DNA of 48,429 bases, from positions 1 to 48,429 of the forward strand of contig JANYKZ010000051.1 in the NCBI GenBank assembly GCA_025361505.1. Direction: 5' to 3'. The stretch is from Coriobacteriia bacterium. GTDB taxonomy: Bacteria; Actinomycetota; Coriobacteriia; Anaerosomatales; PALSA-660. Numbering within the stretch: position 1 is the stretch's first letter; every line of letters starts with the position of its first letter. The position numbers were made by a program, and so were the translations under genes. The notes under the pieces are model-generated. The model was not told the DNA's origin, did no database searches, and was given only the letters and a program-made list of their open reading frames with translations. Positions 35,958 through 41,579 of the stretch are shown here, piece by piece.

Positions 35958-36124
35958 GTGAGCCTCTCGTCGTATGGACGGCCATTGTACGGCACGGGGA
36001 AAGCGGGGAAGATCCCGGGCTTCACCTGCGGCGCCGACAAGCCGATACTAGACGGGTGGCCCACCGCGGGCGGCCCAGCCGCGCACGGTGGGTGGGGGGA
36101 CGATCCTTTAAGGAAGGACCGATC

Positions 36125-37675
<1,551 letters not shown>

Positions 37676-37812: not shown

Positions 37813-38277
37813 GTGGACACCGTTCACGTGAGATGGGTCGAGCGCAGGCAGTTCGTCGGCTGGGACGAGAAGGGCCATGGGATCGTCATGGACGGTCCCT
37901 CGAACGGAGCCGGCGAAGGAACGGGCATCCGTCCGATAGAGCTCGTGCTCTACGGGCTCGCGGGGTGCACCGCGATGGACGTCGTGAGCGTGCTCGAGAA
38001 GAAGCGGCTCGATGTCCGGGGCGTGGAGATCAAGGTCACGGGAGAGCCCTACATGGACGGCTTCCCGCACTACTACAAGGAGATCGACCTCGAGTACGTC
38101 GTGATCGGAGTCGACATCCCCGACGCGGCGGTCGCGCGCGCGATCGAGCTCTCCGAGACGAAGTACTGCTCCGTCAAGGGGACGCTGGGCCCGCAAGTGC
38201 GCGTCACCACGAGCTTCCGGGTCGTGGCTCCGGCCGCACCCGGTCCGTCTGCGTCCTTGGGGGAGCAGCACGCATGA
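37813..38277 (+). CDS. OsmC family protein
   Basis: PIELVLYGLAGCTAMDVVSVLEKKRLDVRGVEIKV...CSVKGTL two-Cys OsmC pattern; GTG start. Confidence 0.9.
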   Translation: MDTVHVRWVERRQFVGWDEKGHGIVMDGPSNGAGEGTGIRPIELVLYGLAGCTAMDVVSVLEKKRLDVRGVEIKVTGEPYMDGFPHYYKEIDLEYVVIGVDIPDAAVARAIELSETKYCSVKGTLGPQVRVTTSFRVVAPAAPGPSASLGEQHA

Positions 38278-39026
38278 GCGGAGGGTGTTCGGATGCGACC
38301 TGCGTGGTGATGCCCGTCTACAACGAAGAGGCGACGGTCGCCGGAGTGATCGACGCCGTGCGCATGCGGTTCGACGGCCAGGTCGTCGTGGTGGACGACG
38401 GTTCAACCGACGGCACCGCCTCGCTCGTGGCGGCGCGTCACGACGTGATGCTGGTGAGCCACGGGCAGAATCGAGGCTACGGCGCGTCGCTGCGCAGCGG
38501 GTTCGCCACGGCTCTGTGTCTCGGGGCCGAGACGATCATCACGATGGACTGCGACGGCCAGCACGAGCCCCGGCACATCACCGAGTTCTGCACCGAACTC
38601 ACCCGGTGCGGCGCGGACATCGTCTCCGGCTCCCGCTACCTGCCGGCCAGCGGTTCGGCCGGCGTGGTGCCGCCTGACCGCCGCGTCGTGAACACGCGCA
38701 TCACCGGCCTCATCAACGAAGTGACCGGATGGGGGCTGACGGACGCGTTCTGCGGCTTCAAAGCCTATCGAGCGGCCGCATTGCGGCGCGTGCAGATCGA
38801 CGAGACCGGCTACGCGATGCCGCTGGAGTTCTGGGCGCGGGCATGGAAGGCGGGCCTCACCGTCTGTGAGATGCCCGTGGAGCGGATCTACATGGACCAC
38901 GACCGGTCGTTCGGACACGACCTGGACGATCCGGCACGCCGCACGGCGTACTACCTGCAGGTCTGGGAGCGGGCGCTCGGCGAGGCCGCCCCGGCCGCGA
39001 ACGGAGAGGTGAACAGCGATGGCTGA
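38274..39026 (+). CDS. Family 2 glycosyltransferase (dolichol-phosphate mannosyltransferase-like)
   Basis: VVMPVYNEEATVAGVIDAV, VVDDGSTDGT, TMDCDGQHEP; ATGA overlap with the OsmC gene. Confidence 0.9.
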   Translation: MSGGCSDATCVVMPVYNEEATVAGVIDAVRMRFDGQVVVVDDGSTDGTASLVAARHDVMLVSHGQNRGYGASLRSGFATALCLGAETIITMDCDGQHEPRHITEFCTELTRCGADIVSGSRYLPASGSAGVVPPDRRVVNTRITGLINEVTGWGLTDAFCGFKAYRAAALRRVQIDETGYAMPLEFWARAWKAGLTVCEMPVERIYMDHDRSFGHDLDDPARRTAYYLQVWERALGEAAPAANGEVNSDG

Positions 39027-39702
39027 CGTCATCTGCATCGGGGCGCACCCGGACGATGTCGAGATCGGCATGGGCGCGACGGTCGCGAAGATGGTCGCGC
39101 AGGGGCTGGAGGTCGTGATGGTCGATCTCACCGACGGCGAGCCGACCCCACACGGCACCCACGAGCGTCGGGTGGTTGAAGCGGCTTCGGCGGCCAAGGC
39201 TCTCGGCGTGGAGAGCCGGATACTGCTGCCGCTCGTGAACCGCGAGCTGGCTGACACGGTAACGGCGCGCACGCTCCTCGCGGAGGTGATCCGCGAACAT
39301 CGGCCGCGCGTGCTCTTCGCGCCGTATCCGATCGACGCTCACCCCGACCATGTCGCCGCCTCGGCGATCGTCGAGGCGGCGCGCTTCTACGCCAAGTTCG
39401 TCAAGACCGAGATGTCCGGAGAGCCGCACTTCCCGGCACGGGTGTACCACTACTTCGCCGTGCACCTGCGTCTGGTGGCGAAGCCTTCCTTCATCGTGGA
39501 CGTGACCGACGAGCTTCCGGTCAAGGCCGCGGCCCTGGCCTGCTACGAATCCCAGTTCGGCGCGGAGACGGCCAACCGTGGCGTGCTCGAGTGGGTGACG
39601 GGCCAGGCCGCTGTGTGGGGAGCGTTGATCGGGACACAGGGAGGCGAGCCGTTCTTCTCGCGCGAGGAGATCGGCATCCGCGACATCAGGGACCTGGTCT
39701 AG
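39019..39702 (+). CDS. PIG-L/LmbE family deacetylase
   Basis: ICIGAHPDDVEIGMGAT, DLTDGEPTPHGTHERR, HPDHVAAS. Confidence 0.93.
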   Translation: MADVICIGAHPDDVEIGMGATVAKMVAQGLEVVMVDLTDGEPTPHGTHERRVVEAASAAKALGVESRILLPLVNRELADTVTARTLLAEVIREHRPRVLFAPYPIDAHPDHVAASAIVEAARFYAKFVKTEMSGEPHFPARVYHYFAVHLRLVAKPSFIVDVTDELPVKAAALACYESQFGAETANRGVLEWVTGQAAVWGALIGTQGGEPFFSREEIGIRDIRDLV

Positions 39703-41267
39703 TGGCCCGCGTCCGCCAGACCTTGCCGTCGGGGCACGGAGAGGTCGTCACCCGTCCCGATTTCGATCAGTGGGGCGCCCTTGCGCGCGAGGGGTCCCGC
39801 CTCGCAGCTTCCTGGGACGCGACGCTGTGCGGCGTCCCGGTCGCGGCGCTGCGCAGGCTCGCGCGTCGCGAGGCGCTCGAGCGCGCGGTCTCGTTCTCGT
39901 CGCGTCTTGGAGTGCCCGTCCGCCCGGTCGAGGGCGAGCCCGGGCTCGTCGTCGTGACAGGACATCAGCCGGAGCTGTACCACCCCGGCGTCTGGATCAA
40001 GGACTTCCTGCTGCAACGCGTCGCGGACGAGACCGGCGCCGCCGCGATCGATCTCGTTGTCGATTCGGATGGCTTCGACAGCCTCGAGATCCACTCGCCG
40101 TGCCTGCGTCCCGAGGTGGGCGTGTGTCGCGCCTATCTCGCGGTCGGTACCACCGACGGCTGCTACGCGTGCACGCCGGTCCCCGCAGCCGACGACATCC
40201 GCGACTTCTGCGAGGCGGGCGCCGACAACCTGTCGACGCTCTCGGCGCCGGCGATCGGCCACCACTTCGCGCGCTTCTGCGAGGGCCTGCGCTCGGCATT
40301 GCCCGACGCCCGGAACATCGCGGAGCTGGTCACGTTCGCCCGGCGCCGCTTCGAGGCCCAGGCCGGGACCGACTACCTCGAGCTTCCGGTAACGGGCATG
40401 GCCGGGTCCGAGGCGTTCGCGACCTTCGCCGCGCATCTCGCGCTCGACGCCGCCGCCTTCGCGACCGCGTACAACGCGGCGCTCGCCGACTACCGCGAGC
40501 GGACGGGGACGCGCAGCGCCGCGCAGCCGTTCCCGGACCTTGCGACCGAAGGGGATCTGGTCGAGCTGCCGCTATGGGTGATCGATGGACGGCGCCGCAC
40601 CGTGTGGGCGCGGACCGGCGAGCATCCCGCGCTGCTTGCGGACGGCAACGTCCTGTGCGAGCTCGGAGACGCGGCAGACGCCCCCGCACGGTTGCTCGGA
40701 GCCGGCCTCTCACTGGCGCCGAAGGCGTTGGCTCTGACGCTCTTCACGAGGCTCCTGGTCGCGGACCTCTTCATACACGGGGTCGGAGGCGGCCGCTACG
40801 ACCAGGTCACCGAGGATGTCTTCCGGCGCTACCTCGGCATCGAGCCGACGCCGATGGTGGTCGCATCGATGACGGTCTATCTGCCGCTCGGAGCGCGCAT
40901 CGTGCGCGACGAGGAGGTCGAGGCCGCGACGATGGCGCTCAACCGGCTGCAGCACAACCCCGACCAGATGCTGGACGACGTCGAGTTCGACACGGCGGAG
41001 GAGCACGCGCGCGCCGTGGCCCTGGCGGGGGAGAAGGCGCGACTGGTGTCCGAGATCGCTCAGCCTGACGCGGACAAGAAGACGGTGGGTGCTCACATCC
41101 GCGAGGTGAACGCGGAACTCGCTGGGCTTCTCGCCCCGTGGGAGCGCGAGCTGGCGTCCGACCTCGAGGACCTGAGGCGCATGCAGCAGGCGAGTGAGAT
41201 ACTCACCGACCGGACCTACCCGTTCTGCTTCTGGAGCCCCGAGGAGATCGCCGACAAGGCCCGATGA
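39702..41267 (+). CDS. BshC-like (putative cysteine-adding enzyme-related) protein
   Basis: GLVVVTGHQPELYHPGVWIKDFLLQRVADE resembles the BshC VVTGQQ region; C-terminal coiled coil; TAGTG overlap with the PIG-L gene. Confidence 0.55.
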   Translation: MARVRQTLPSGHGEVVTRPDFDQWGALAREGSRLAASWDATLCGVPVAALRRLARREALERAVSFSSRLGVPVRPVEGEPGLVVVTGHQPELYHPGVWIKDFLLQRVADETGAAAIDLVVDSDGFDSLEIHSPCLRPEVGVCRAYLAVGTTDGCYACTPVPAADDIRDFCEAGADNLSTLSAPAIGHHFARFCEGLRSALPDARNIAELVTFARRRFEAQAGTDYLELPVTGMAGSEAFATFAAHLALDAAAFATAYNAALADYRERTGTRSAAQPFPDLATEGDLVELPLWVIDGRRRTVWARTGEHPALLADGNVLCELGDAADAPARLLGAGLSLAPKALALTLFTRLLVADLFIHGVGGGRYDQVTEDVFRRYLGIEPTPMVVASMTVYLPLGARIVRDEEVEAATMALNRLQHNPDQMLDDVEFDTAEEHARAVALAGEKARLVSEIAQPDADKKTVGAHIREVNAELAGLLAPWERELASDLEDLRRMQQASEILTDRTYPFCFWSPEEIADKAR

Positions 41268-41384: not shown

Positions 41385-41558
41385 ATGGGCAAGCCCGTCG
41401 TTGACGTCGATCTGTGCACGGCTTGTGGTATCTGCGTGGACGAGTGCCCGTCCAGCGCGCTGGATCTCGGCGACACCGCCATCCTGGCTCGTCCGGACGA
41501 CTGCACGGAGTGCGGCACCTGCCAGGAAGTCTGCCCCAACGAGGCCATCACCCTCTAG
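41385..41558 (+). CDS. 2[4Fe-4S] ferredoxin
   Basis: CTACGICVDECP and CTECGTCQEVCP motifs in a 57 aa protein. Confidence 0.93.
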   Translation: MGKPVVDVDLCTACGICVDECPSSALDLGDTAILARPDDCTECGTCQEVCPNEAITL

Positions 41559-41579
41559 GTCGACGCGCAGCTGCACATC

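Follow-up and report, generated by a model that had tools for sequence, protein, structure and literature searches.

What would four genes, packed onto one strand of a contig from a Coriobacteriia MAG, make together if a deacetylase and a possible ligase among them recall bacillithiol synthesis and the glycosyltransferase does not? The window, that is, the whole stretch of DNA analysed, is 48,429 nucleotides long (contig JANYKZ010000051.1), and the genes at 37813-41267 (Table 1) form a tight operon. OsmC and GT2 share an ATGA overlap, GT2 and PIG-L overlap by 8 nt, and PIG-L abuts the gene of the 521-aa protein, here called BCL, at TAGTG. The original prediction of a single operon, made from these overlaps, is borne out in relatives, in which all inner junctions are on the same strand and short, with median gaps of 1 nt for OsmC/GT2 (n=22), -1 for GT2/PIG-L (n=50) and 7 for PIG-L/BCL (n=51). 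The outer junctions of the four-gene block have median gaps of 70 and 334 nt, and none is of 30 nt or less. With inner gaps tight and outer ones wide, the arrangement is not due to chance. The wider gene order (TrmA, PilT-like ATPase, OsmC, GT2, PIG-L, BCL, PlsY, DAGK) is mostly retained in the 20 loci retrieved with wide flanks; since this synteny with the unrelated PilT, PlsY and DAGK genes is also order-wide, the linkage of the four genes is better judged from spacing.

Table 1. Genes of the four-gene operon, with positions in the window.
Feature	Position	Strand	Evidence
OsmC-family protein, 154 aa	37813..38277	+	Pfam PF02566, 60.3 bits; Cys motifs AGCTAMD, KYCSV
GT2 glycosyltransferase, 250 aa, DPMS/ArnC/PpgS-like	38274..39026	+	PF00535 Glycos_transf_2, 85.4 bits
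PIG-L/LmbE zinc deacetylase, BshB1 type, 227 aa	39019..39702	+	PIG-L 93 bits; TIGR04001 200 bits
BCL, 521-aa distant BshC homologue, candidate amino-acid:aminosugar ligase	39702..41267	+	Predicted fold, Foldseek

Two neighbours of the operon deserve a mention of their own. The PilT-like ATPase (36056-37672, + strand), whose gene is found upstream of the operon across the order, carries an N-terminal response-regulator receiver domain (a REC-T2SSE fusion). Directly 3' of BCL, outside the tight operon, lies a 57-aa ferredoxin-like protein (41386-41559, + strand) with two CxxCxxC-type clusters recognized by eye and without a Pfam match.

BCL was found in 65 of the 69 sampled genomes of one Coriobacteriia order, which consists of anaerobic bacteria of soil and subsurface. 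It was detected in none of 81 genomes from other orders of the class and, by a family-profile search whose scope was the phylum Actinomycetota, in none of 293 other genomes elsewhere in the phylum; nor was it found in the plasmid and viral collections. Full-length strong orthologues of GT2 and PIG-L have the same distribution (about 64 of the 69 genomes each), and the genomes that lack them are those that lack BCL, with a single exception, where a fragment of BCL lies at a contig edge. The BshB1 model TIGR04001 was above cut-off in 52 of 120 genomes, every full-length strong match coming from within the BCL-bearing order, and the BshC-fold protein was found solely alongside GT2 and PIG-L. The suggested survey of the co-occurrence of the three genes has thus returned one shared distribution, together with operon spacing. 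Some copies are imperfect. At L001 (4631-6060) and L010 (1501-2930), two records that probably belong to the same genome, BCL is broken, with ca. 43 residues missing and a frame change, reflecting either gene decay or an assembly error. At L061 (3580-4261) PIG-L is split into two open frames, by damage or by sequencing error, and the BCL of this locus is among the most divergent.

The label "BshC-like" had been given to BCL on the strength of one motif (VVVTGHQPELYHPG), with a search against PF10079 proposed as its check and the lack of a match as counting against it. No match was obtained: BCL is unmatched in Pfam and NCBIfam (PF10079, TIGR03998), PF10079 found nothing in its own genome nor in any of 40 BCL relatives scanned, and a sequence-only hunt for likeness to BshC (phmmer, profile search of the PDB, Pfam and NCBIfam) was equally negative. 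By HMM, therefore, the label fails. It stands by predicted fold, another of the checks that had been proposed. The AlphaFold model (built from 40 sequences; pLDDT 93.9, pTM 0.88) has BshC 4WBD as its top Foldseek match in the PDB (E 2.7e-12, probability 1.00), aligned end to end in 550 columns over 521 and 540 residues, with TM 0.51/0.50 and 11% identity. The next matches are class I LysRS (7e-5), 7 orders of magnitude behind, and TyrRS (1e-3). They are the neighbourhood to be expected, as BshC itself combines a Rossmann fold of the class I synthetase-like kind with a coiled-coil domain (PMC4360819). A viral fold library gave nothing under E 0.001.

Judged by its predicted model, BCL is homologous to BshC, a kinship that shows mainly in the fold, and because Foldseek ranks BshC first over the full length, PF10079 is too narrow for it. 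At the level of sequence the two profiles weakly agree at the GxQP motif, the only stretch that hhalign brought together, with T-G-H-Q-P placed in register on G-G-Q-Q-P (score 30.6, compared with 27.4 for the highest of 60 column shuffles and 16.0 for a reversed control; probability 4%). BCL and the Bacillus subtilis enzyme (4WBD) share the end-to-end fold, GxQP after strand 1 and a C-terminal helical region, and differ in most of their sequence and in the details of the motif (TGHQPELYHPGVW versus GGQQAGLLTGPLY). Weak Pfam matches to FliT and DUF4164 fell in the C-terminal helical region of BCL and were dismissed as coiled-coil noise.

As had been claimed, the deacetylase is of the bacillithiol type, scoring 200 bits against TIGR04001 (NCBI cut-off 182.5) and only 40.8 against the MshB model (cut-off 224), and its nearest solved structure is 6P2T, N-acetyl-alpha-D-glucosaminyl L-malate deacetylase 1 (E 1.5e-37). 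The metal site H10-D13-H111 and the acid D12 are invariant in 31 members, leaving the zinc site intact, and so are R51 and H108, the counterparts of BshB Arg53 and His110. The position of BshB Arg109, however, is occupied by Ala (A107) in all 31, whereas the arginine is kept in 14 of 14 true BshB of the phylum (family f26) and in the aligned Bacillus and Thermus structures. Docking puts Arg109 at GlcNAc-malate, and the R109K mutant is impaired (PMC4101496). Its replacement argues for an aglycone other than malate.

Genomes were also searched for other genes of thiol metabolism. No BshA (TIGR03999), MshC (TIGR03447; CysRS-level matches only) or bacillithiol disulfide reductase YpdA (TIGR04018) was over cut-off in 75 genomes. 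For the glutamate-cysteine ligase family GCS2, none of the 69 genomes of the order passed the cut-off. In a sample of 150 genomes of the class, no more than 52 of them from the BCL-bearing order, 43 from other orders passed it, and many genomes of those orders likewise lack the family. DinB_2, whose superfamily includes bacillithiol S-transferases (PMC5815605), exceeded its cut-off in 37 of the 69 genomes of the order, compared with 2 of 51 others. The operon OsmC matched PF02566, and both active-site cysteines were present in 22 of 22 relatives. These comparisons run between clades, and their observations are not independent. The paper on the first isolates of Anaerosomatales (OPB41), presumed to be the order in question, does not mention a thiol, and no description of the order's main low-molecular-weight thiol was found.

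With moderate confidence we read the operon as a variant of the bacillithiol-type pathway, with a product other than bacillithiol that serves the order as its low-molecular-weight thiol. GT2 would transfer an N-acetyl-aminosugar, its acceptor being phosphorylated or acidic and other than malate; PIG-L would then strip the acetyl group, and BCL would couple the freed amine to an amino acid, most likely cysteine, through an amide bond. The resulting thiol would be the order's equivalent of bacillithiol, mycothiol or glutathione, and OsmC may act as a thiol-linked peroxidase in the pathway. As for the predicted chemistry, it is quite likely that the BshC-fold ligase has as its substrate an amino-sugar glycoside that has been deacetylated; the odds that a soluble, cysteine-bearing thiol distinct from bacillithiol results are about even. 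Supporting the thiol reading are the top rank of the BshC fold, the weak profile agreement at GxQP, the BshB1 score, the shared distribution and spacing, the lack of BshA, MshC and YpdA, the GCS2 and DinB_2 patterns, the loss of Arg109 and the OsmC cysteines. Weighing against it are the TM of ca. 0.5, the lack in BCL of any residue that would indicate cysteine, the same absence of YpdA, the weak linkage that gene order provides, the absence of GCS2 from many genomes of other orders as well, the fact that in vitro activity of BshC had never been demonstrated as of 2015 (PMC4360819), and the kinship of GT2, whose nearest relatives mostly use polyprenyl phosphate and so suggest a lipid-linked product.

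This last point leads to the glycosyltransferase, which is indeed not BshA-type, as the original prediction had it, and belongs to GT2 (PF00535). BshA is a retaining glycosyltransferase, and the family of the operon GT2 is probably inverting. Its AF2 model (pLDDT 92.8) is closest by Foldseek to ArnC and DPMS and then to GpgS, an enzyme with a soluble acceptor. PpgS (polyprenyl-phospho-GalNAc synthase) is its best NCBIfam match (107 bits, under the cut-off of 370) and the NCBIfam model most widely matched in the family (41 of 41 relatives); a literature search for the mycobacterial PpgS pathway found no papers. D92-x-D94-x-Q96-H97 (DxDxQH), R121, R136 and N140 are invariant in all 41. The two arginines align with PfDPMS Arg117 and Arg131, the residues by which that enzyme holds the dolichyl (acceptor) phosphate (PMC5526996), and Asn140 takes the place of DPMS Ser135. 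An anionic acceptor is likely, probably a phosphorylated one, and either soluble or lipid. The operon enzyme has the GT-A fold, the motif and the arginines in common with PpgS, DPMS and ArnC, and differs in its lack of the transmembrane domain of DPMS and ArnC, in the asparagine, in its low PpgS score and in being coupled to a deacetylase and a ligase.

One could envisage a lipid-linked route in which GT2 would make polyprenyl-phosphate-HexNAc, PIG-L would deacetylate it and BCL would aminoacylate the amino sugar, so that the envelope would be modified rather than a soluble thiol made. Such a route would account for the uniform PpgS matches, the ArnC and DPMS folds and the phosphate-holding arginines. 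We nevertheless consider it rather unlikely, as GT2 is far under the PpgS cut-off, has no transmembrane domain, carries Asn140 and has the soluble-acceptor GpgS enzymes near it by fold as well, the operon includes no flippase or GT-C partner, and the OsmC, DinB_2 and GCS2 evidence suits a soluble thiol better. The broader proposition, in which polyprenyl phosphate or some other phosphorylated acceptor would carry an aminoacyl- (cysteinyl-) aminosugar made by the operon, with the BshC-fold ligase outside its known role, seems doubtful; we know of no described counterpart of such a compound.

Alternatively, the amino acid that BCL adds to the amino sugar might not be cysteine, or BCL might be some other class I synthetase-like ligase, giving a product that is not a thiol. 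LysRS and TyrRS are its second-best folds, it lacks both an invariant cysteine and an evident thiol-binding site, and no residue points to cysteine as the substrate; with BshC as the best match over the full length, and a genomic context (GCS2, DinB_2, OsmC cysteines) that suits thiol metabolism, we find this improbable. Ordinary bacillithiol (Cys-GlcN-malate), with GT2 in the role of BshA by non-homologous displacement, would explain a BshB1-type deacetylase and a BshC fold within one operon, but is highly improbable given the alanine at the GlcNAc-malate contact, the probable mismatch of inverting and retaining enzymes, the lack of YpdA over cut-off and the ca. 11% identity of BCL to BshC.

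Under the favoured thiol reading, the operon keeps the logic of BshA-BshB-BshC (glycoside, deacetylation, amide) with a glycosyltransferase, a BshB1-type deacetylase and a BshC-fold ligase. It differs in having GT2 instead of the GT4 BshA, a deacetylase without Arg109, a BshC homologue missed by PF10079 and TIGR03998, no YpdA, and all its genes joined with OsmC. With mycothiol synthesis (MshA-D) it shares a PIG-L-family deacetylase and a class I synthetase-like ligase, which in mycothiol adds cysteine to an amino sugar; unlike that pathway, the order has no MshC over cut-off and a PIG-L remote from MshB. The order probably makes a protective thiol or an amino-acid-tagged sugar so far undescribed. 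If the thiol reading is true, bacillithiol-like thiols with another aglycone and another first enzyme would extend across a whole order of Actinomycetota, and BCL would be a second, very distant lineage of BshC, an enzyme with poorly understood catalysis whose key residues it would help to find. Published surveys of bacillithiol genes relied on sequence cut-offs (E 1e-20; PMC6282198, PMC12719100) and should for that reason miss BCL.

Finally, true BshC is found in our phylum sample only as family f26 (19 of 297 genomes), adjoined by BshB and, at one locus (L046), by BshA. These loci (L033-L052) carry canonical BshC and BshB, bacillithiol genes within a phylum noted for its mycothiol.
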